Source: Salinibacterium sp. (GTDB lineage: Bacteria; Actinomycetota; Actinomycetes; Actinomycetales; Microbacteriaceae). From it: a stretch of 64,000 bases of DNA. The position numbers and the translations under genes were made by a program. The notes beneath the pieces are model-generated. The model worked only from the letters and a program-made list of their open reading frames with translations. It did no database searches and was not told where the DNA came from. Shown in pieces: positions 5,927 through 47,539 of the stretch. The DNA is taken from the NCBI GenBank assembly GCA_019638845.1, contig JAHBSZ010000003.1:124001-188000 (forward strand). The letters run 5' to 3'. Within the stretch, counting starts at the first letter, position 1. Every line of letters begins with the position of its first letter.

Positions 5927-7674
5927 GAGAGTGCCTCCAAGAGTGCGAGCGCTTCGTCACGACGGTCGGCAACGCCCTGAGCATCCGATGGCCCCGTCTC
6001 CTCCTTGGCGCGCAGGACGAGACCGAAGTCGGCTTGCTCGATACTCGTTGCCACGACCCCCCGCTCGATCAGTTCCTGACATTTGTCGATGACGGCCAGA
6101 CACAGGTCGAGCAGTGCTGCCCCCTTTTCGGCGGAGCAGAAGGCATCGTTCGCGCTGAGTGCACTCTGCATGAGTACTCCATCGCGCAGCAGTCTGCCGC
6201 CGAGCAGGACAACCCGTTCGTGTCCGGGTAACGAGGTCGCGCCGATGATTTCAGCGAGGGATGCCAGCCGGTCGGCTTCCGCGAGCAGGGAGATGACTCG
6301 TGCTCGCCGCGCCGACCAGTTCGAGTGCTGCACGGCCTGATACCAGAGGCCGATCGCATCCGCATCGCGAGCGAACGAGCCGGTCCAACTGACAGCCGGG
6401 TAGTGCCGCGAGTAGGCGAGATCCCTGTCGAGCCGCCACAGGGAGCGCACAAAACGTTGGGTGTCAGTGGTGACCGGTTCGGTCATGTCTCCGCCGGGCG
6501 GCGAGACCGCACCGATCACCGTGACCGAAGCCGTTCTTCCGCCGAGCGTGGTGACCCGAGCCGCGCGCTCGTAGAACGCGGCGAGCCGGGAGGCGAGGTT
6601 GGCGGGATAGCCCTCCTCGGCGGGGAGGTCGCCGTTCCGGTTCGCAAACTCCCGCAGTGCTTCCGCCCACCGTGAGGTCGAGTCGGCGATCACGACGACG
6701 TCATAGCCCATGTCCCGGTAGTACTCGGCGACAGTGATGCCGGTATAGATGCTCGCTTCCCGGGCCATCATGGGCATGTTTGAGGTGTTGGCGATGATCA
6801 CGGTCCGGTCGATCAGTCGGCCGCCAGTGCGAGAGTCGACCAACTCGGAGAGCCCCTGAAGCACGTCAGCCATTTCGTTTCCGCGCTCGCCGCACCCGAC
6901 GTAGACGATGACGTCGGCGTCGCTCCACTTGGCGATCTGTTGCAACAGGAGAGTCTTGCCGGTACCGAACCCACCCGGCACCGCTGCCGCAGAGCCTTTG
7001 GCCAGCGGGTAGATGAGGTCGAGCACCCGTTGGCCCGTGTGTAGTGGGACCGCTTCGGTGGCGCGGGCGCGGAATGGACGCGCTCGGCGCACCGGCCAGC
7101 GCTCGGCGAGCGTCACGTCGTGACCCCCGACCTGTGCAATGACATCAGACGCGTGCACCACGGCGCTCTCGACAAGCCAACTCAGTTCGCCGGAGACTCC
7201 CGGGGGCACGAGCACGCGGTGTTCGACCGAACCGGCGTCGGGCACCGTCCCGAGCAGGTCGCCAGACTCGAGCGCGGTGCCGACGGCGACCGCGGGCACG
7301 AACGTCCATTCCCTCGCTAGGGTCGCGGCATCCTGGGTGGATGATGCGCGGTCGGGGGTCAGCCACAGTTCGGCCGACGACAAGGGGCGCAGTAGCCCAT
7401 CGAACACCTGGCCGAGGAGGCCCGGCCCGAGCAGGCCCACGAGTTGGTCGCCCGTGCCAGTGGCGACGTCGCCGGGGGTGACCCCGCCCGTGTATTCGTA
7501 GGCTTGGAGCACCGCGCGGTCTCCGGTGATGGCGACTGTCTCGCTACTGATCCGGTTCGGGCCGATGGCGACGAGCTCGAGCATCGACAGTTCTGCGACC
7601 CCCTCGATTTCGATGAGCGGTCCGCTGACCCGCACTACCCGTCCGTTTCGTGGTGTTCCCGCTACTGCATCCAC
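5923..7674 (-). CDS. atpA: V/A-type ATPase subunit A (catalytic head subunit)
   Basis: The 583-residue catalytic subunit. The P-loop GGFGTGKT is at residues 234-241 (Lys240), and GERGNE at 262-267 supplies the expected catalytic glutamate (Glu263). The non-homologous region, which sets A apart from F-type beta, lies at roughly residues 110-190 (WTFVPAV, GDLLGTV, VLVPPGVSG). The start is a GTG at 7674 that overlaps the end of the subunit E gene by 13 bases. With B, D, F, E, C, I and K all present, the operon encodes a full V1/A1 head, stalks and membrane ring. Confidence 0.96.
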   Translation of the reverse strand: MDAVAGTPRNGRVVRVSGPLIEIEGVAELSMLELVAIGPNRISSETVAITGDRAVLQAYEYTGGVTPGDVATGTGDQLVGLLGPGLLGQVFDGLLRPLSSAELWLTPDRASSTQDAATLAREWTFVPAVAVGTALESGDLLGTVPDAGSVEHRVLVPPGVSGELSWLVESAVVHASDVIAQVGGHDVTLAERWPVRRARPFRARATEAVPLHTGQRVLDLIYPLAKGSAAAVPGGFGTGKTLLLQQIAKWSDADVIVYVGCGERGNEMADVLQGLSELVDSRTGGRLIDRTVIIANTSNMPMMAREASIYTGITVAEYYRDMGYDVVVIADSTSRWAEALREFANRNGDLPAEEGYPANLASRLAAFYERAARVTTLGGRTASVTVIGAVSPPGGDMTEPVTTDTQRFVRSLWRLDRDLAYSRHYPAVSWTGSFARDADAIGLWYQAVQHSNWSARRARVISLLAEADRLASLAEIIGATSLPGHERVVLLGGRLLRDGVLMQSALSANDAFCSAEKGAALLDLCLAVIDKCQELIERGVVATSIEQADFGLVLRAKEETGPSDAQGVADRRDEALALLEALS

Positions 7675-8422: not shown

Positions 8423-10171
<1,749 letters not shown>

Positions 10172-10185
<14 letters not shown>

Positions 10186-11107
10186 CGATCACCTCGAAGT
10201 TTCTGGCACCTGTGCATGCGGCCACGAGCGCGGCGCGGGTCATTGCCGAGTCAGCCCCCAGAACTGCGAGGGCTCCCGTGATGATGCCTGGCCCCGGCAA
10301 CGATCCGTGCAGCAATCGCGCGCCCTCGGCATCAACGGTCGCCACGAGACGCGCTTCCGCTCGCCAGAGGTCGTCCGGAGTGTTGATCCCGTCGAGAGAC
10401 GCGCGGACCGAAGCCGGCAATCCGGTCCGGAGAGCATCCAGATCGGAGGCGAACATCCATGCAGTGCCGATGAGGGGTCTCAGCAACTGTACGAGGCGAT
10501 CGGTCGGCTCAGCTTCGTCCACCAGCACGGCGCGTGCCACGAGTAGGGCGCCCGCCGTGCGGGTCCAGTCGTGCGTCTCAGGGGCGGCGACCGACAGCCG
10601 TCGCAACCACGACACTGTCAGTACGTCTGCCATCGAGCCAGGCAGAAGTGTGTCTCCGGGATCACCCCACGGTGAGTGCCGTACCGCCTCGCCGACTTCT
10701 GCGACCGAGGTAGCGGCGAGCACGCTGGGCCACGCTGTGCTGAGCGCGCCGAGGTCGAAGTAGCGCCCGTCAGGCGGTTTGCCCGCATACAGCTCGCCCA
10801 TGCGGACGACGATGTTGTCGCGCTCGAAGAACGCGGCAGCAGCCCGCACGAGCGCCGTACCCTGCACGGGCAACCATCCGGCGAGCACTCGCAACTCCCA
10901 GAGCACCGTTTCGCTTATCGCTCGCTGGGCCTCTGCGAGCGTGTGAGCACTCGCGAGGCGCTCGCCATAAGCAGAGTCGCTCAGCAGCGCGAGGGCGGCT
11001 TCGAGGTTGGGTTGATTGGCGAGCTCCCGACAAAGTCCGACCCCTGCCCGCCGGGTGGCCATCGATCGCGCGCGCACGGATGCGCCAACCCAATCCGCGG
11101 CCGTCAT
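10172..11107 (-). CDS. atpC: V/A-type ATPase subunit C (AC39/d-like rotor socket)
   Basis: A 311-residue, almost all-helical soluble protein of the V-ATPase AC39/C family, which links the central stalk to the proteolipid ring. The N-terminus (WVGASVRARSMATRRAGVGL) corresponds to the typical AR-x-(R)-RARK-like start. The rest has three helical repeats with motifs such as LRVLAGWLP and FFERDNIVVRMGELYAG. The latter matches the D-x-x-N-(I/L) of the family. It overlaps the upstream gene by 4 bases and subunit I by 14. Confidence 0.85.
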
Positions 11108-11535
11108 CGGGTGATTCCGTGGTCGGCGAGAAGGGCGTCGATGACCTGGGCTGCGATCGTACTCGTCGCCTGGGCGGCAGCGGCCTCGAGTGCTTCAGAC
11201 TGATCCTGGGCGAGGGCCGTCAGCCGGGCATCCTCGTCAGCAGCGTGCTGTGTGACGCGCATTGCTGACGCGGCCCGCTGTGACTGTGCCTCGAGCCTGG
11301 CGTTCGCGACGATCGCCTCCGCGCGCGTTGTCGCCGCGGCAACGACGTTCGTGGCCGCACTCTCGGACCGATCGACCAGGTGCGCAGCGGAATCCACGTC
11401 GGACGCTAGCGCGTCGAAGACCGGGGCCAACTCGAGAGCCGGGCCGCCGTCGTCGTCCGCCGGGACCCCCGCGGGGCCAGCAGCCCCAGGCGTTCCCACC
11501 GGACGGAACCGATCGAGGATGTTTGGCCGTGCCAT
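11104..11535 (-). CDS. V/A-type ATPase G/H-like peripheral stalk protein, first gene of the operon
   Basis: A 143-residue Ala-rich protein whose residues 45-140 should form one long helix, as in the G/H stalk partner of subunit E. The first 35 residues are Pro/Gly-rich and disordered. The start is ATG 11535 (MARPNILDRF), preceded by a near-perfect AAGGAGGT ribosome-binding site; the longer reading from 11571 lacks one. Sequence similarity to known G/H subunits is weak, so the call depends on helical character and on its place as first gene of a complete V/A-ATPase operon. Confidence 0.7.
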   Translation of the reverse strand: MARPNILDRFRPVGTPGAAGPAGVPADDDGGPALELAPVFDALASDVDSAAHLVDRSESAATNVVAAATTRAEAIVANARLEAQSQRAASAMRVTQHAADEDARLTALAQDQSEALEAAAAQATSTIAAQVIDALLADHGITR

Positions 11536-11746
11536 CGAACCTCCTTGAACCGCGCAGCGGGTGGGATGCATGAGCCCACGACGGGGCCTACTTCACATTG
11601 TCGGTCGCCCTAGCGACGTCCCGACAGTGCCTTTCGGCCCTAGTCCGGTCAGTCTCCGCGAGCGATCTGAAGGAGCCGGATCACGGTCCTGAGAGCTTGC
11701 CGGTCTCTCATCGTGCTCTCACGGTGTCCTGAATACGGTCGGCACT
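11536..11746. promoter_or_regulatory. divergent control region between the V/A-ATPase operon and the ABC/two-component block
   Basis: This 211-base region must hold promoters for both divergent operons. It contains nested inverted repeats at 11599-11626 (TGTCGG/CCGACA outside GTCGC/GCGAC). It also has a partial palindrome, AGTGCCTTTCGGCCCTAGT (11626-11644), which loosely resembles DosR/DevR-type boxes of other actinobacteria. The 11-bp repeats at 11706-11727 belong to the ABC promoter. No clear -10 box for the ATPase operon could be picked out. Confidence 0.45.
11706..11739 (+). promoter_or_regulatory. 11-bp direct repeats and -10 box of the ABC/two-component operon (leaderless)
   Basis: Two 11-bp units, TCTCATCGTGC (11706-11716) and TCTCACGGTGT (11717-11727), are followed by a -10 box TACGGT (11734-11739), 7 bases before the ATG at 11747. 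Tandem repeats at this period one turn upstream of -10 are typical of OmpR-family response regulators. The same repeats at the same distance from -10 occur at 16548-16581, flanking a locus that encodes such a regulator. Confidence 0.6.
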
Positions 11747-12484
11747 ATGACCAATTCAGCAATAGCGACCGACGCTCTGTCGAAGTCGTACGGATCCACG
11801 CTGGCGCTTGATGCGCTGTCGCTGGAAGTGGCCACCGGAGAGATCTTCGGTCTACTCGGCCACAACGGCGCAGGAAAGACCACGACGGTGAACCTGCTCA
11901 CCACGCTGCTTGCCCCGTCGCGGGGGACGGCGGAGGTGGCCGGCCACAGCGTCACCGCAGCAGCGACCGAGGTGCGGCGAGCAATCGGCTATCTGCCTGA
12001 GAACGTGCAGTTCTACGACACTCTCACGCTCATGGAGAACCTGCGGTTCTTCGCGCAGTTGTCCGGCCTGCATCGGCCGGATCAGCGCATCCGCGACGTG
12101 CTGCGCATCCTCGACTTTGAGGGGCGCGACCGCCAGAAGCTCGGAACCTTCAGTAAGGGCATGCGACAGCGGGTCGGGATTGCCCAGGCAATCCTCCATT
12201 CCCCGTCTGTCCTGTTTCTTGATGAACCCACATCGGGACTCGACCCGGAAGGTGTGCGCACGCTCAGGGAGACCATCGTGCGGTTGAACACCGAATTCGG
12301 CATGACGATCTTCATGAACACACACCTGCTGTCCGAGGTGACCAAAACGTGCACGAGTATCGCGATCCTGCGCGGGGGAAAGCTCGTGCACCAGGACACT
12401 TTGGCGAACACCCTCGCGGACTTCCCCGGCGAAGACTCTCTCGAAGAGATCTACTTCCGGCTCGAGTCGGAGCCGGTGTCGTGA
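11747..12484 (+). CDS. ABC transporter ATP-binding protein (ABC-2 type exporter)
   Basis: The 245-residue ATPase of an ABC-2 exporter of the NatA/CcmA-like class. Walker A is GHNGAGKTT (residues 38-46). The signature-like region is FSKGMRQRVGIAQAIL and Walker B is FLDEPTSGLDP. It would energise the two permeases encoded next (GTGA overlap). The ATG has no Shine-Dalgarno sequence but lies 7 bases after a TACGGT -10 box, so leaderless translation is likely. Association with a lipoprotein and a two-component system suggests export or resistance to an envelope-active compound; the substrate is unknown. Confidence 0.93.
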   Translation: MTNSAIATDALSKSYGSTLALDALSLEVATGEIFGLLGHNGAGKTTTVNLLTTLLAPSRGTAEVAGHSVTAAATEVRRAIGYLPENVQFYDTLTLMENLRFFAQLSGLHRPDQRIRDVLRILDFEGRDRQKLGTFSKGMRQRVGIAQAILHSPSVLFLDEPTSGLDPEGVRTLRETIVRLNTEFGMTIFMNTHLLSEVTKTCTSIAILRGGKLVHQDTLANTLADFPGEDSLEEIYFRLESEPVS

Positions 12485-13380
12485 ACACCTTCGTCGTGAG
12501 CGCTCGACACGAGATGCTCAGCACCCGGCGCGCTCGTACGGCCCATCTGCTCCTCATCGTGTTCATCGGGATGGTCATCGCGTCGTCGGTGATCGGGTGG
12601 GTTACCAACCAAACCGTGACCGGTGTCTACGAGAAGGTCGTCGCCGATGGGCTGACAACAGCACCGAATCCCTTCACCGGAGTGACTCCGCTGTACTACG
12701 CGCGCAATGCCGTCATCTACGTTCTGCTCATCGGCTCTCTTATGGCCATCGTGCTGGGGGTGCAGGCCACTCTGCGAGACCGCAAGGCAGCAACGACCGA
12801 CCTCGTCTTGAGTCGGCCGGTGGGCTCGGCCACGAGACTGCTCGGTCAGCTGGCCGGGCTCGGGGTGGTACTTGCAGCGGTGATCGGAATCAGCTTCTCG
12901 GTGAGTTGGGTGATCATCAGTGTCATCAACGGGGCGCCGCTCGGCTGGGCCGACACGGGCCGTGTGATTGCGTTCGGACTGTTGTCGTGGGTGCTGCTAT
13001 CGACCTTCACGTTGTTGGGAATGCTCACTGGATTGAGAAGCAAAAGAGAGACGACAGCCCTGCTGGTGCCCTTCGTGATCTGGAGCGCAATCGCCTTTGT
13101 GCTGCCACAGATCGGAACGGCAGCCAGGCCAGTCTCGTTGCTCAACCCCGTTCCCGCGGTGAGTTCCACAGGTGGCTACTTCGATGTTGTCGCTGCGATC
13201 ACCGGCCCGTTTTCAGTGACGGAACAGTTCAAACGGGCATCGAGCATCGTCCTTCAGGACCCCGCGGTAACCGGGGATGCCACGTCCAGCGTTCTCATCC
13301 TGCTTGCCTTCCTCGCAGTGATGACAGTCGTCGTAGCGGTGACCCCGCGCAATCGCATGAGGAGTGGTCTGAATGAGTAG
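12481..13380 (+). CDS. ABC-2 type transporter permease
   Basis: A 299-residue membrane protein with about six transmembrane helices and a large extracytoplasmic region after helix 1 (residues about 40-75), the fold of NatB-like ABC-2 permeases. The start is GTG 12481, which overlaps the TGA of the ATPase gene (GTGA) and so is probably translationally coupled. The conserved cytoplasmic DRKAATTDLVLSRPVGSA segment resembles the coupling region of ABC-2 permeases. It shares architecture with the next permease, consistent with a heterodimeric exporter. Confidence 0.88.
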   Translation: MNTFVVSARHEMLSTRRARTAHLLLIVFIGMVIASSVIGWVTNQTVTGVYEKVVADGLTTAPNPFTGVTPLYYARNAVIYVLLIGSLMAIVLGVQATLRDRKAATTDLVLSRPVGSATRLLGQLAGLGVVLAAVIGISFSVSWVIISVINGAPLGWADTGRVIAFGLLSWVLLSTFTLLGMLTGLRSKRETTALLVPFVIWSAIAFVLPQIGTAARPVSLLNPVPAVSSTGGYFDVVAAITGPFSVTEQFKRASSIVLQDPAVTGDATSSVLILLAFLAVMTVVVAVTPRNRMRSGLNE

Positions 13381-14344
13381 CACTGGGGTTATCGCGCGCA
13401 AGGAGCTTCTCGACCTGCGCCGCGACCGGCTGTTCGCGGTTCTCATCGGCTTCTTGGCGGTGGCGACGCTCATCTCCGTGGGCGTGGCCGCGGCAAGTTT
13501 CCGCTCGCAACTGGATGCCTACAACCTCTACGTGCAGCAACTTACGGCCAGTGGTGGCACGACTGTGCCTGCGGCCCCGCAGCTCTTCCCGTTGCAGTTG
13601 CTGCGTGGGGGAGTCGAGTACCTCGAGATACTCGGGGCGCTCTTCGCGATCGTTCTCGGCTACGGGACGGTGGCCAAGGAGAAGTATCGAGGCACGCTCC
13701 AGCTTCTGCTGAGCCGGCCCGTCGGCCGCTTCGCGATTCCCGGTGGCAAAATCGTGGGCCTCGCTGCCGTGTGGCTCGTGGTGGTTGCGGCGCTGACCAT
13801 CACCACCACGGTCGCCATCATGGTGATTGGCAATGCGCCGTTGCAGGCAATCGATCTCGTTCGAATCCTGATCGCCGCGGTCATCGCCTGGGTGTATCTC
13901 GTGTTCTGGAGCTCGCTGGCAATCGGGATCACAGCACTCTCGCCCAGGCTCAGCACCGGACTCATCGTGGCGATTGTCGTGTGGTTGGCCTTCGTGCTGA
14001 TCATTCCGCAGATCGGGGACACGATGGATCCCGACAATCAAGTGCCCGGCGGACTCTTCGCCACCCTTCACATCCAAAAATCAGACGAACTGAAGGTGCT
14101 CGCGAACTTCGCGGGTTTCGACGGCATTCGCAACGGTGTCGAGGTCTCGTCGATCACCAAGCACTTCGAGCGCCTGTCGTTTGCCTTCCTCGGCATAAAG
14201 GACAAGTACAACCAGCAGCCTCTCGGCCTCGTATGGGCCGACATGTGGGGCTACGCCATCACCCTCACTGCGGCGACTTTCGCTGCTGTGACCTTCGCCG
14301 TCGGGGTCACCACCCGACGCAATCTACAAAGGAAGATCTCATGA
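13373..14344 (+). CDS. ABC-2 type transporter permease
   Basis: A 323-residue permease, partner of the preceding one. It begins with a cytoplasmic GVIARKELLDLRRDRLFAVL segment, followed by about six transmembrane helices. The motif AKEKYRGTLQLLLSRPVGRF between helices 2 and 3 corresponds to the KATTDLVLSRP region of its neighbour and contacts the ATPase in this family. The ATG overlaps the upstream gene by 8 bases, and the stop overlaps the lipoprotein start by 4, so all four genes are one translational unit. Confidence 0.88.
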   Translation: MSSTGVIARKELLDLRRDRLFAVLIGFLAVATLISVGVAAASFRSQLDAYNLYVQQLTASGGTTVPAAPQLFPLQLLRGGVEYLEILGALFAIVLGYGTVAKEKYRGTLQLLLSRPVGRFAIPGGKIVGLAAVWLVVVAALTITTTVAIMVIGNAPLQAIDLVRILIAAVIAWVYLVFWSSLAIGITALSPRLSTGLIVAIVVWLAFVLIIPQIGDTMDPDNQVPGGLFATLHIQKSDELKVLANFAGFDGIRNGVEVSSITKHFERLSFAFLGIKDKYNQQPLGLVWADMWGYAITLTAATFAAVTFAVGVTTRRNLQRKIS

Positions 14345-14898
14345 AACCACGTCTACTCGTTCCCGTCGCCCTAGTGACATCCCTCTCGCTCATGGGGCTC
14401 GCTGGCTGCCAAGTTGCTACTCCCGCGCCGGCAAGTACGTCCGCGGCGGCCAACACCGTAGTCCTGCCGGTGGATTCGAACCCCATCGTCAACGCGAGTA
14501 CAGCTCCCGGCCTCGTCATCGTGTCCGCGGCCGCGGAGAACAATGTGGATCCGGTCACCAAGGCAGCAATCAAAGACCGGCTTCAGGTAACCGTTCGCAA
14601 CGACTCTTCCAGCGAGCTGACGTCGTTCGAGATCTACTACGTCATGAAAGACGTGACGACCGGGAAGAGTGAGGGCTATTACCAAGCCTTGACAGGTTTC
14701 ACCCTCGCAGCGGGTGCCACAGGTACGCTGTCGTTTGACGGCGAGACCGGTGTTGGCCACTATCCGGAGAACACTTTCAGCATCTACCGAAGCTCGAAGA
14801 ACCAGGTTGATTTCACCATCGAAGTTAGTGCTGCCGGAGTGCAGGTGGCCAAGGCCACGGCAACGAAGGGGTCTGGAGCAGGAGATGCAGCAGACTAA
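14341..14898 (+). CDS. predicted lipoprotein linked to the ABC exporter
   Basis: A 185-residue exported protein. The N-terminus has basic residues, a hydrophobic core (LLVPVALVTSLSLMG) and a lipobox LAGC, with Cys23 as the lipidation site. The mature part starts with a Ser/Ala/Thr-rich linker, then a beta-rich domain of about 120 residues resembling an immunoglobulin-like or FxLYD-like fold (LQVTVRNDSSSELTSFEIYY). ATG 14341 overlaps the permease stop and follows AAAGGA. Its place between exporter and two-component genes suggests a ligand-binding or sensor-accessory role; this is inference. The precise family is not recognised. Confidence 0.8.
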   Translation: MKPRLLVPVALVTSLSLMGLAGCQVATPAPASTSAAANTVVLPVDSNPIVNASTAPGLVIVSAAAENNVDPVTKAAIKDRLQVTVRNDSSSELTSFEIYYVMKDVTTGKSEGYYQALTGFTLAAGATGTLSFDGETGVGHYPENTFSIYRSSKNQVDFTIEVSAAGVQVAKATATKGSGAGDAAD

Positions 14899-14919
14899 GG
14901 CAGCGCACCGGTATCGCTC

Positions 14920-15600
14920 GTGAAAATACTTGTTGTTGAGGACGACGTCCGCATTGCGGACGTCGTCCGGCGCACCCTCTCGGAGGCTGGTTACGCGGTC
15001 GATGTGACCCACACCGCTCCGGCCGGCGTTGAAGCGTTCGAGATCGAAACGTACGATCTCGTCGTTCTCGACCTGATGCTGCCGGGTCTGCCTCGTGGCG
15101 GCATGGACGTGTGCGTGCGCATCCGTGAGCTCAACCGAGACATCCCTGTGCTCATGCTTACCGCGCTCGACTCGACACGAAAACGTGTCGAGGGGCTGGA
15201 TGCCGGAGCCGACGACTACCTCATTAAGCCGTTCCACCTCGTCGAGTTGGTCGCTCGAGTTCGTGCGCTGCTGCGTCGAGCACCGCGAGCTCACGCGCCG
15301 ATACTGAGGGCACAGGGGGTGGCACTCGACCCCGCAACTCGCACGGCGACCAGGAACGGTCGAACGATTGTGTTGACCGCGAAAGAGTTCGCGGTGCTGG
15401 AATACCTGATGCGCAATTCCGGGCACATCATCAGCGCCTCCGAACTGATCACCCACGCCTGGGATAGCAACTACGACGGCTACAGCAACGTCGTGCAGAC
15501 CTATATCCGCTACCTGCGGCAGAAGCTGACGCTGCCCGGCGAGATCGAGATCATCGAGACTCGCCGCGGAGCTGGCTACGTGATTGGGGCAGACGCATGA
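14920..15600 (+). CDS. two-component response regulator, OmpR/PhoB family
   Basis: A 226-residue regulator. The receiver domain (residues 1-115) has the acidic pair Glu7/Asp8, phospho-acceptor Asp51 in VVLDLMLPG, Thr81 and Lys103. A winged-helix DNA-binding domain follows (about 128-224, with TAKEFAVLEYLM and VVQTYIRYLRQKL). GTG start at 14920. It overlaps the kinase gene by 4 bases. Regulators of this family bind tandem direct repeats of about 11 bp, and such repeats occur in front of the ABC operon and of the acidic protein gene, which are the likely targets. Confidence 0.95.
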   Translation: MKILVVEDDVRIADVVRRTLSEAGYAVDVTHTAPAGVEAFEIETYDLVVLDLMLPGLPRGGMDVCVRIRELNRDIPVLMLTALDSTRKRVEGLDAGADDYLIKPFHLVELVARVRALLRRAPRAHAPILRAQGVALDPATRTATRNGRTIVLTAKEFAVLEYLMRNSGHIISASELITHAWDSNYDGYSNVVQTYIRYLRQKLTLPGEIEIIETRRGAGYVIGADA

Positions 15601-16538
15601 TCTTTCGGCGCGCCCTCATCAGGCTGACCGTCACCTACACCCTCGTGCAGCTCGTCCTCTTCGGTCTCTTCGCGATCGGAATCTACGTCTTCGTTACCGG
15701 TACTTTCGACTTCGACGTGCCCGAACTGGCCGGTGAGGCGTTCATTGCCAGCGCCGAACAAGGCTTTGCGCTCCTGCGCAGTGGGCTCATCGTCGGGTAC
15801 TTGGTGCTGGTGGTGCTGATTCCCGCGTCGAGCTATCTGATGGCTCGTGGTGCTCTGGCGCCGGTTCGACGCAGCTATGAGCTGCAACAACGCTTCGTTG
15901 ATGGTGCCTCGCACGAGTTCCGCAGTCCGCTGAGCGTGATCCAGGGCGAACTCGAACTTGCCCTCTCGCGATCCCGAACCCCAGCGCAGTACCGGGCCGC
16001 AATCGCGACCGCGCTGGATGGGGCCGAAGGCCTCACCAGATTGACCAATGATCTGCTGCTGCTCACTCGCGAAACCAACGATGAACTCGTCGCGACCTTC
16101 ACTCCGGTCTCCCTCAACGCACTTGCCCACAAGGTCGTCCAGTCGAATGCTTCAGCGGCACGAATGAGCGTCGTCGAAACTCGTGCCGTGATGGTCAAAG
16201 GATCCACGGAACTGCTGACCCGCGCCCTGGCGAACCTCATCGATAACGCGGTCAAGTTCACTGCCGAATCAGGGCACATCGACATCACCGTTTCAGCGGT
16301 CGGAAGGAGCGCCCAGATTCTGGTTGCCGACAACGGATTGGGTATGACGGAGGCTGAGTGTGCCCGCGCGTTCGATCGGTTCTGGCGCGCCCAAGACGCG
16401 AGAACCACCCCTGGCTTCGGGCTCGGTCTCGCGCTGGTACAACAGATCGTCACCGCCCATCACGGGAAAGTGTCGATCGCATCAGTACCAGGTTCGGGGA
16501 CCACGGTCACGCTGACCTTGCCCGAGTACCTGCCGTGA
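15597..16538 (+). CDS. sensor histidine kinase
   Basis: A 313-residue membrane kinase paired with the preceding regulator. There are two transmembrane helices (about 8-34 and 62-84) around an extracytoplasmic loop of only about 27 residues. No HAMP domain is visible. The phospho-accepting His106 lies in SHEFRSPLSVIQGE. The catalytic domain has the N box (NLIDNAVKF), G1 (DNGLGM) and G2 (GFGLGLALV). Such intramembrane-sensing kinases often partner with an ABC transporter that serves as co-sensor, which fits the operon. The signal is unknown. Confidence 0.94.
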   Translation: MIFRRALIRLTVTYTLVQLVLFGLFAIGIYVFVTGTFDFDVPELAGEAFIASAEQGFALLRSGLIVGYLVLVVLIPASSYLMARGALAPVRRSYELQQRFVDGASHEFRSPLSVIQGELELALSRSRTPAQYRAAIATALDGAEGLTRLTNDLLLLTRETNDELVATFTPVSLNALAHKVVQSNASAARMSVVETRAVMVKGSTELLTRALANLIDNAVKFTAESGHIDITVSAVGRSAQILVADNGLGMTEAECARAFDRFWRAQDARTTPGFGLGLALVQQIVTAHHGKVSIASVPGSGTTVTLTLPEYLP

Positions 16539-16547
16539 CCGAGCCGC

Positions 16548-16581
16548 TCTCACGCTCATCTCACGGTCATCTCCATAACGT
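16548..16581 (+). promoter_or_regulatory. 11-bp direct repeats and -10 box upstream of the acidic exported protein gene
   Basis: The units TCTCACGCTCA (16548-16558) and TCTCACGGTCA (16559-16569), plus a partial third TCTCC, are followed by a -10 box TAACGT (16576-16581). The second unit starts 17 bases before the -10 box, exactly as at the ABC promoter (11717 to 11734). The expected transcription start is near 16588, giving a leader of about 46 bases. Confidence 0.6.
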
Positions 16582-16633
16582 GGAATCAACGTCACGCACT
16601 TCGCGTGGCGCAGCTACACGAAAGGACATGACC

Positions 16634-16921
16634 ATGCAGAAGAACATCAAAGTCGCCGCAGGCGCCGCAGCTGCGCTCGCAATCGTCGTTGCCGGAGGGA
16701 TCGCCATCGCGCTGCCCGCACAGGCCACCCCGATCAGCACATCCGTCTCGGTCGTCGAGCCTGTTGACGCGACCGATACCGACAACGTGCAAAACGAAGT
16801 CGAAGACGGCACCGCCGACGGCGCCGCCGAAACCGGCAGCGAAACCAGCACCGAGTCCAGTAGCGAGAACACGAGCGACGACATCAACGGTGTCGCGGTC
16901 GAAGACGGCACCCAAGACTGA
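16634..16921 (+). CDS. small acidic exported or membrane-anchored protein
   Basis: A 95-residue protein with a basic start (MQKNIKVAAG), a hydrophobic signal or anchor segment (AAAALAIVVAGGIAIALPA) and a possible cleavage site after AQA. The tail is extremely rich in Asp, Glu, Ser and Thr and has no cysteine. ATG 16634 is preferred over ATG 16628 because AAAGGA lies 7 bases before it. The gene follows the kinase with its own repeat-containing promoter, so it is probably a target of the two-component system. The family is not recognised; an acidic cation- or cationic-peptide-binding role is only a guess. Confidence 0.7.
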   Translation: MQKNIKVAAGAAAALAIVVAGGIAIALPAQATPISTSVSVVEPVDATDTDNVQNEVEDGTADGAAETGSETSTESSSENTSDDINGVAVEDGTQD

Positions 16922-16999: not shown

Positions 17000-17182
17000 T
17001 TACTCGTCCGAGTCGGTGAAGGAGTCCGTGAACTCCTTGCCCGCCTGACGCGCGTTGGCGGCTACCTCCTGGGCGATGCCCTCCGCTTGCATGCTGCGGT
17101 TCTCGGTAACATCGCCGACCTTCTCTTTGGCCTTCCCCGCGAGTCGGTCTGCTTCGTTCTTGATGTCTTCTTTGTCGACCAT
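17000..17182 (-). CDS. CsbD family stress protein
   Basis: A 60-residue hydrophilic helical protein typical of the CsbD family (DIKNEADRLAGKAKEKVGDV, then TENRSMQAEGIAQE). CsbD-like proteins are induced by general stress in many bacteria, but their molecular function is unclear. The ATG at 17182 has a good GAAAGGAAG ribosome-binding site. It is a single gene; I could not identify a convincing alternative-sigma promoter upstream. Confidence 0.88.
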   Translation of the reverse strand: MVDKEDIKNEADRLAGKAKEKVGDVTENRSMQAEGIAQEVAANARQAGKEFTDSFTDSDE

Positions 17183-46045: not shown

Positions 46046-46477
46046 GTGTTCCTTGGCACCTATGCCCCCAAACTCGACGACAAAGGTCGCGTGATCCTTC
46101 CGGCCAAGTTCCGCGAGGAGCTCTCCTCGGGTCTGGTCGTCACTCGCGGGCAAGAGCGCTGCCTCTACGTCTTCAGTCAGCGTGAGTTCGAAGAGATCCA
46201 CGGCAAGATCCGTCAGGCCTCGATCACCAGCAAGCAGAACCGCGACTTCCTCCGTTTGTTTCTCTCGGGCGCGAACCAAGAGGTCCCCGATAACCAGAAC
46301 CGAGTGACGATCCCTGCGAACCTGCGCGACTACGCCGGCCTCGGAAAAGAACTCACCGTGATCGGTGCGGGCAATCGTGCCGAAATCTGGGACACCGAGG
46401 CGTGGAATACCTACTACGAGAATGCGGAATCCGACTTCGTGAACACGACCGAGGAGGTGATTCCGGGACTCTTCTGA
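46046..46477 (+). CDS. mraZ: transcriptional regulator MraZ
   Basis: A 143-residue protein with two AbrB-like halves ([20 protein letters not shown] and [20 protein letters not shown]) that forms a ring and binds the repeats upstream of its own promoter to control the dcw cluster. The start is GTG 46046 with GGGGAGG upstream. The length and both DxxGR/NxxNR-type motifs are normal. It is the first gene of the cluster. Confidence 0.96.
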
Positions 46478-46540
46478 CTCCTCCGCGCTGACTCCCAGCC
46501 GTCCGCCCTGGCTTTCTTCCCCGATGCCAGGTCGCAACGG

Positions 46541-47539
46541 ATGGGGATCAGCACCGAGGATCCAGCTCTCGCTCCTGTTCCTATGGCAGACAACAGCTCG
46601 ATTCATACGCCGGTCATGCTCGAACGCACCATCGAGCTCCTCTCGCCTGCGCTCGCACATGACGGTGCCGTGCTCGTCGATGCCACACTCGGGATGGCGG
46701 GCCACGCCGAGGCCTTTCTCGAGCGTTTTCCCGATCTCACTCTGGTCGGGATCGACCGCGACACGGATGCCCTGTCGATAGCCCAGGAACGGCTGGCCGC
46801 GTTTGGCACGCGGGTGCACTTCGCCCATGCGGTCTACGACGAAATCGGGACCGTCCTCGCCGACCGCGGGTTGCCTCGAGTGTCGGGAATCCTCTTCGAT
46901 CTGGGTGTTTCTTCGCTTCAGCTCGATCGTGTTGACCGGGGCTTTTCCTACTCTCAAGACGCACCGCTCGACATGCGGATGGACGCGACGACTGAGCGAA
47001 CAGCGGCTGTGATTCTGGCCACCTACAGCGAAGGGGAGCTGCGTCGCCTCTTCTACGAATTCGGGGACGAGAAGCTCGCCCCGCGCTACGCGAGCAAGAT
47101 TGTTCAGCGCAGGGAGATCGAGCCCTTCGAAACGTCTGCCCAGCTCGTGGACGTACTGATCGCAGCTACCCCGGCCGCGGCACAGCGCGCCGGGCATCCA
47201 GCCAAGCGGGTCTTTCAGGCATTGCGCATCGAGGTCAATCAAGAGCTGTCGGTGCTCGAGCGTGCGATTCCTGCGGCGATCGACGCCCTCGAACTTCATG
47301 GCCGCATGGTCGTGCTTGCGTACCAATCGCTGGAGGATCGAATCGTCAAGCGCGCGCTCCAAGCGCGAGCAGCGTCGACAGCGCCACGTGGACTTCCGGT
47401 GGAGTTGCCGGAGCACAGGCCCGAACTCAAGTTGCTCGTGCGGGGAGCCGAACTGGCTTCGGAAAGCGAGCGCGAGCGGAATCCCCGCGCAACTTCTGTG
47501 CGACTCCGTGCGGTCGAGCGGTTGCGAGACGTCGCGTGA
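46541..47539 (+). CDS. rsmH: 16S rRNA (cytosine(1402)-N(4))-methyltransferase RsmH
   Basis: A 332-residue SAM-dependent methyltransferase that modifies C1402 in the ribosomal P site. It has the SAM motif VDATLGMAGHAEAFLERFP, LFDLGVSSLQLDRVDRGFSYS with DAPLDMRMD, and the C-terminal VLAYQSLEDRIVKRA. A second possible start, ATG 46583 (MADNSSIHTPVMLE), aligns better with homologues; neither has a strong ribosome-binding site. It overlaps the next gene by 4 bases. Confidence 0.95.
   Translation: MGISTEDPALAPVPMADNSSIHTPVMLERTIELLSPALAHDGAVLVDATLGMAGHAEAFLERFPDLTLVGIDRDTDALSIAQERLAAFGTRVHFAHAVYDEIGTVLADRGLPRVSGILFDLGVSSLQLDRVDRGFSYSQDAPLDMRMDATTERTAAVILATYSEGELRRLFYEFGDEKLAPRYASKIVQRREIEPFETSAQLVDVLIAATPAAAQRAGHPAKRVFQALRIEVNQELSVLERAIPAAIDALELHGRMVVLAYQSLEDRIVKRALQARAASTAPRGLPVELPEHRPELKLLVRGAELASESERERNPRATSVRLRAVERLRDVA

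Follow-up and report, generated by a model that had tools for sequence, protein, structure and literature searches.

Do two promoters that flank a gene block in Salinibacterium sp. answer to the regulator encoded between them? The window, i.e., the whole stretch of 64,000 nt analysed here (GCA_019638845.1, contig JAHBSZ010000003.1, positions 124,001–188,000 of the forward strand), carries six genes that run from an ATP-binding cassette (ABC) transporter ATPase through two permeases, a lipoprotein and an OmpR-type response regulator to a histidine kinase, followed by a gene for a small acidic exported protein. Tandem 11-bp repeats, here called boxes, precede both the ATPase gene and the acidic gene. 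A preliminary description of this DNA had proposed that these components form a closed circuit through the repeats, and our comparison of the locus with its relatives supports the view that this proposal is largely right. It is very probable that a single two-component pair drives both its own exporter operon and the acidic gene via the shared box; we would regard this circuit as real because relatives keep the box. Literature searches found no published description of the gene block.

Tandem boxes at two promoters

Box 1 (11706–11727, +), a predicted response-regulator site, consists of the halves TCTCATCGTGC (11706–11716) and TCTCACGGTGT (11717–11727) and lies ahead of the −10-like hexamer TACGGT (11734–11739, +) of the exporter operon. 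Box 2 (16548–16569, +) consists of TCTCACGCTCA (16548–16558) and TCTCACGGTCA (16559–16569), is directly followed by a partial third repeat, TCTCC, from 16570, and lies ahead of the −10-like hexamer TAACGT (16576–16581, +) of the acidic gene. The halves were read directly from the sequence, and both boxes were identified by pattern search and by conservation in relatives. Direct reading also bears out the equal spacing that had been claimed: at each promoter, 17 nt separate the start of the second repeat from that of the hexamer. The twin boxes had been described correctly, and they exceed chance expectation by a wide margin.

Chance repeats in GC-rich DNA would nevertheless be the simplest source of such boxes. 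The bare pair TCTCA-N6-TCTCA has three sites genome-wide, and it is not rare on this scale because a backwards control likewise has three. Within the window, the pair occurs twice, compared with an average of 0.16 sites in shuffled sequences, of which 2 in 100 attain two. When box, −10 hexamer and spacing were searched together across the 2.96-Mb genome, as had been advised, the only sites with zero or one mismatch were those at 11706 and 16548; the backwards control of this full pattern gave one site at up to one mismatch. The specificity of the full pattern, together with the conservation found at orthologous promoters (see below), argues against chance, which we consider extremely improbable as an explanation.

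A consensus scan found no sigma-70 promoter with a −35 element at either box, and the second repeat therefore occupies the −35 place. This absence would suit an activator standing in for the −35 element. OmpR/PhoB-type regulators are associated with head-to-tail repeats of about 11 bp near −35, and such repeats are present and conserved here as a predicted site. The assignment of the regulator to this class holds: the gene at 14920–15600 (+) encodes an OmpR/PhoB-type protein with receiver and winged-helix domains, both above the Pfam cut-off (Response_reg, 9.5e-26; Trans_reg_C, 9.2e-23). Behind box 1, the ATG of the ATPase gene (11747) sits 7 nt past the −10 hexamer; this distance predicts a leaderless mRNA, with its start at or next to the ATG (11746–11747). 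Adjacent genes between ATPase and kinase share 4 or 8 bases, and the sole gap, of 21 bases, lies before the regulator; box 1 thus probably heads a single operon of all six, so that the regulator would activate its own expression. For the acidic gene, the likeliest start is 16634, where a ribosome-binding sequence, AAAGGA, lies 7 nt upstream; box 2 begins 86 nt upstream of this start, and the transcript is predicted to begin near 16588.

Conservation of the box and its tie to the regulator

Relatives were fetched with permease 2 (best 79 of 113 loci), and the exporter start with its upstream DNA was examinable in 71 of these 79. A regulator was taken as orthologous at ≥55% identity within the stretch; it usually adjoins the exporter and is about 4 kb off in L034. 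Gene calls in the relatives are crude picks of open reading frames (ORFs), and true starts are uncertain in L160 and L164 because the picked starts fall in or before a box. The pattern for exporter promoters allowed C or T at base 2 of each repeat, with a tolerance picked post hoc. The preliminary description had named a lack of conservation of the repeats at orthologous loci as grounds for rejecting its proposal; the repeats proved to be conserved. Of the testable relatives, 24 have an orthologous regulator, and in all 24 the box precedes the ATPase gene (23 exact and one with a single mismatch), compared with 0 of 24 for a backwards control at up to two mismatches. In 23 of the 24, the distance from box start to start codon is 40–42 nt. 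When 25 upstream regions were anchored at the ATG without reference to the box, information was maximal at both repeats and at the TA and T of the −10 hexamer; conservation outside these positions was lower and scattered in the 25 sequences.

The promoters of the acidic genes keep the repeats as well. An acidic exported gene lies within 2.3 kb of the kinase in 23 of 46 kinase entries (about 19 independent loci), and an exact box stands between kinase and gene in all 23. Seven of the 46 entries (L170–L176) duplicate the loci L033, L055, L022, L029, L026, L038, and L032, and at least L031, L120, and L172 escaped the filter for acidic genes. In G279, where the acidic gene lies about 8 kb past the kinase, an exact box is kept 87 nt before its ATG.

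We also compared the distribution of box and regulator over 398 Microbacteriaceae genomes, with thresholds of E ≤ 1e-70 for the regulator (at most seven candidates scored per genome) and E ≤ 1e-40 for permease 2. The exact full box pattern is present in 25 genomes (44 sites; three sites for the backwards control), the orthologous regulator in 27, and permease 2 in 15. The proposed link between repeats and regulator is supported by this distribution: both occur together in 23 genomes, the regulator only in four and the box only in two (Fisher p = 4e-31, a value overstated because the genomes are related). A search allowing one mismatch gave 58 sites in the 27 regulator genomes (control, 6) and four in 27 regulator-less genomes hand-picked from low handle numbers (control, 3). 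G113 and G299, which have the regulator and no exact box, do carry a box with one mismatch, which precedes an acidic gene beside the pair. G090, which has the box only, keeps box, ATPase, and permease 1; the remainder is not in the fetched stretch.

All 15 exporter genomes contain the box, and 8 of the 10 exporter-less box genomes have the regulator. The eight genomes that combine regulator and exact box and lack a permease-2 match at this threshold weaken the earlier idea that exporter and lipoprotein act as a co-sensor. Judged from these gene contents, the exporter is optional, and the predicted core consists of kinase, regulator, and acidic protein.

A box that belongs to another DNA-binding protein, with the regulator merely nearby, might also account for some of these data. 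Among 33 exporters with a more distant, different OmpR-type protein as the best regulator match, 18 have a box upstream at up to two mismatches, as do 4 of 14 exporters without a regulator match in the stretch; the control was zero in both groups. This explanation is highly unlikely given the co-occurrence of regulator and box over the 398 genomes and given that the sequence of the boxes covaries with the local regulator's recognition helix. The window regulator has the recognition helix SNVVQTYIRYLRQKL, and orthologous regulators have SNVVQ(T/S)(Y/T)(I/V)RY. At base 6, the exporter box has T or C in all 24 loci with NVVQ(T/S) regulators and G in 9 of the 10 with EVYxGY regulators, many of which lie some kb from the exporter rather than adjacent to it. 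The exception among the latter is L070, where the regulator is on the other strand and 5.7 kb away. Regulators with IKQLR or IKNLR tend to pair with TTTCAT repeats, mostly below threshold. The match between helix and base 6 provides a natural data set on regulator–DNA specificity.

Genes behind the box and the proposed circuit

The genes behind the box are established by comparison, as are the box itself, its geometry, its conservation, and its tie to the regulator. In the exporter-less G308, G025, G261, and G084, the box precedes an acidic gene beside the pair; in G248 and G203, it precedes an acidic gene about 1.7 kb beyond the kinase. The box of G089 precedes a gene for a putative exported protein rich in D, H, and R, i.e., not purely acidic (L160, 5108–5533). 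G372 has pair and acidic gene about 120 kb from the exporter, with one exact box each before regulator, acidic gene, and exporter. In G319, an ORF for an FtsX/MacB-type permease ahead of the pair has the box at its 5′ end, in two copies.

G007 contains six exact boxes in 17 kb. Five of these precede the exporter, the acidic gene, and the genes that encode a lysylphosphatidylglycerol (LPG) synthase, a penicillin-binding protein (PBP) of class A, and a protein of 438 aa whose esterase-type matches are weak and fall below the cut-off; the sixth lies 278 nt ahead of a LytR-CpsA-Psr ORF, and a one-mismatch box lies ahead of an HtrA-like protease gene. In G319, the ATG of an LPG synthase gene has a one-mismatch box 99 nt upstream, a spacing identical to that in G007. 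Of 29 genomes scanned, 15 have LPG synthase genes; among the 27 of them that were also searched at up to one mismatch, a box precedes one in G007 and G319 only.

Two further loci show the block in altered form. The block of box, FtsX-type permease, ABC ATPase, regulator, and kinase occurs twice in G319, about 630 kb apart and with equal matches (L164, L165). In G084, the exporter genes are lost; what is left ahead of the regulator is the box, a start codon, and a fragment of the lipoprotein (L157, ~6090–6300, −). Away from the pair, G113 has a one-mismatch box about 40 nt before the ATG of an ORF that matches the ABC ATPase at 33% (L206, ~1566–1599, −); this ORF is a possible further ABC target.

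The kinase (15597–16538, +; HisKA and HATPase_c) had been described as having almost no external loop. Its external loop is short and not absent, with about 28 residues between the hydrophobic runs as judged by eye, and opens with FDFD; intramembrane-sensing histidine kinases, for comparison, combine two membrane helices with a very short loop outside. An FDxD motif beside the first membrane helix is present in 37 of 38 distinct kinase sequences, the window's included; F37 and D40 are invariant and D38 is kept in 37. The acidic protein (16634–16921, +; 95 aa, by direct reading) would have a mature part of 64 aa if cut after AQA, with 17 D or E residues and no K, R, or H. It has no match in Pfam or NCBIfam, and hence no PepSY match. 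Among the relatives, L123 and L157 each encode an acidic protein with one PepSY stretch (Pfam), a repetitive, low-complexity appearance is common to many of the acidic proteins, and several have EDGT(N/A)DGETADD-like units; the acidic gene of G025 holds 3.7 copies of a 45-bp unit. The effector role assigned in the preliminary description is one of two readings of this protein, i.e., a decoy or a tuner of the kinase.

We infer binding, activation rather than repression, the signal, and the roles of exporter and acidic protein as follows. The kinase would sense a polycation at the membrane surface, likeliest a cationic antimicrobial peptide, via FDxD at the outer end of helix 1, and would phosphorylate the OmpR-type regulator. 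The latter would bind TCTCA-N6-TCTCA head to tail over the missing −35 element and recruit RNA polymerase. Its first output would be the leaderless operon of exporter, lipoprotein, regulator, and kinase, closing a positive loop, and the exporter would remove the polycation. Its second output would be the acidic exported protein, which would bind the cation extracellularly as a decoy or would tune the kinase. Taken whole, a positively autoregulated OmpR-type envelope-defence circuit is the probable explanation of the locus, held with moderate confidence; that a cationic peptide is the signal is a tentative reading that comes close to an even call. Two promoter repeats first seen by eye now amount to a regulon that can be tested, in which the DNA site is defined, the regulator and a candidate sensing motif are named, and the list of targets is short.

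The acidic repeat protein could act in such a circuit as a secreted polyanion shield that soaks up cationic antimicrobials outside the cell, a role that we consider rather unlikely. In this reading, the shield would be co-induced with the uncharacterised exporter, and in one genus with LPG synthase too, by a kinase reading the same charge. If true, the polyanion shield would add to the antimicrobial-peptide defence of Actinobacteria a decoy arm that has not been described.

Several observations weigh against the envelope-defence circuit or parts of it, in addition to the overstated Fisher value. G331 and G352 have a regulator match and no box nearby at up to two mismatches; no box was found near the regulator of G089, whose only box is 1.25 Mb away; and the exact box of G083 looks like chance. 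A second exact box in G203 (L163, ~5313) stands, unexplained, before a different OmpR-type pair of 34% identity. By our filter, 21 of the 46 kinase entries have no acidic gene within 2.3 kb, and two kinases are cut. The LPG synthase link comes from two genomes of one genus, and the single LPG synthase gene of the window's own genome (contig C8) has no box with up to one mismatch. FTR1 or DUF347 genes near the pair in some relatives could suit a metal.

Such genes bring in a second reading, in which the kinase would sense a hard cation (iron, aluminium, uranyl, or a lanthanide) via FDxD and the acidic protein would sequester it in the manner of UipA. An FTR1 permease gene lies near the pair in L158 (Pfam), with a similar N-terminus in L159; the window's acidic protein lacks basic residues, and PepSY occurs in two tested relatives. 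UipA is a uranyl-binding PepSY protein with a negative face, encoded with UipRS upstream, according to the available part of PMC8963506. The UipA comparison and the FTR1 neighbour keep a metal in play. A cationic peptide is favoured because of the G007 boxes before LPG synthase and wall-enzyme genes and because of the LanFEG-like make-up of the ABC-2 exporter: exact boxes before LPG synthase and class A PBP in G007, with the near box before LPG synthase in G319, better fit envelope charge and wall repair. As the window protein also has no PepSY match, we regard the metal circuit as unlikely. DUF347 membrane-repeat genes were observed near the pair in L157 and L158 (Pfam-confirmed), with similar N-termini in L159, L205, L208, and L209.

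The targets in G007 bear on a third reading, i.e., a general response to secretion or envelope stress, in which misfolded exports or damage to the wall would be the signal for the pair and the kinase would receive feedback from the acidic or PepSY protein, as DbfS does from DbfQ. The one-mismatch box before the HtrA-like protease gene and the exact box before the class A PBP gene are consistent with this, and small PepSY proteins are common beside two-component pairs, with DbfQ acting on its own kinase (PMC12714742, in the part available). We judge this reading improbable, given that the external stretch of the kinase is short for a folded partner, that the HtrA box is one mismatched site in one genome, and that many of the acidic proteins resemble low-complexity repeats.

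Likenesses to known systems and further features

The envelope-defence circuit invites comparison with described modules. As predicted from its genes, the block works like GraRS/MprF and Cpr/LanFEG modules, yet it fails defining tests of each. The GraRS regulator is also of the OmpR type. The GraRS-VraFG/MprF system of Staphylococcus aureus further resembles the window in the short acidic kinase loop at the end of the first helix, in the ABC transporter beside the pair, and in LPG synthase among the targets, the last here predicted by box only (G007 and G319). The accessible text of PMC10581149 gives the GraS loop as DYDFPIDSL, with D35 at the membrane junction required for signalling, and states loops of under 10 residues for kinases of the GraS kind; it describes a VraG loop of about 200 residues and calls GraRS non-autoregulated. 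In contrast, the window's exporter is of the ABC-2 rather than the VraFG/BceAB type, its pair sits behind its own box, and the block includes an acidic secreted protein, of which the accessible text of PMC10581149 makes no mention.

The likeness to Cpr/LanFEG modules lies in the exporter. In the window, this is encoded by genes for the ABC transporter ATPase (11747–12484, +; Pfam ABC_tran, 1.6e-31), permease 1 (12481–13380, +; GTG start; PF12679, 1.3e-09), and permease 2 (13373–14344, +; PF12679, 1.9e-23). Both permeases match ABC2_membrane_2 (PF12679) in Pfam and neither matches an FtsX family. Cpr/LanFEG exporters are made up of one ATPase and two ABC-2 permeases, and the window has the same composition. 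CprABC-CprRK and NisFEG-NisI likewise combine an ABC transporter with a two-component pair, and the nisin case also includes a lipoprotein, according to the part of PMC8003753 available. Unlike these systems, the window has an ATPase that scores 178.6 bits against the lantibiotic-protection model TIGR03740, below its cut-off of 309.75, and a predicted exported lipoprotein (14341–14898, +) with an Ig-like beta-sandwich domain and no Pfam family; it also adds the acidic gene and the TCTCA boxes, and a lantibiotic substrate would be assigned by analogy only.

Perhaps the closest relative of the block is UipRS-UipA of Microbacterium, linked to uranium tolerance. There, too, in a member of the same bacterial family, the genes of the pair precede that of an exported protein with negative charge, and two relatives of the window's acidic protein carry PepSY (L123, L157). 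UipA differs in its tandem PepSY domains, which the window protein lacks, and a role of UipRS is not demonstrated (both points from the available part of the review PMC8963506). DbfQRS of Vibrio cholerae resembles the window in encoding a small exported protein beside the pair and differs from it in that the window kinase has a stretch of only about 28 residues and that the window protein, unlike those of the relatives L123 and L157, has no PepSY match. CutRS, which acts in secretion stress in Streptomyces, is likewise an actinobacterial pair linked to envelope targets. Its regulator binds TAWATAAA (PMC12802291, in the part available), whereas the conserved site here is TCTCA-N6-TCTCA; TAWATAAA itself was not searched for.

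Among the best 79 of 113 loci, exporter and Ig-like lipoprotein also occur in records labelled Patescibacteria, Saccharibacteria, and archaea, so that any function established here could apply widely. The bacterial exporter stretches often include an OmpR-type regulator, and none was found in the archaeal L082, L083, L090, and L100. The Ig-like lipoprotein stays with the exporter even in the archaea- and Patescibacteria-labelled records (L022–L100). Some of its copies have TSP3-like calcium repeats, as judged by eye (L081, L082, L090, L100; one member Pfam-confirmed), and some lack a lipobox.

Directly upstream of the block, on the opposite strand (window 8848–11571, −), lie V/A-type ATPase genes, with V_ATPase_I above the cut-off and AC39 below it. 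To our knowledge, such genes are unusual in Microbacteriaceae. A gene for a CsbD-like stress protein lies directly downstream of the acidic gene (window 17000–17182, −). Farther along, the window contains an mraW RNA motif at 46473–46570 (+; Rfam RF01746, 54.3 bits).

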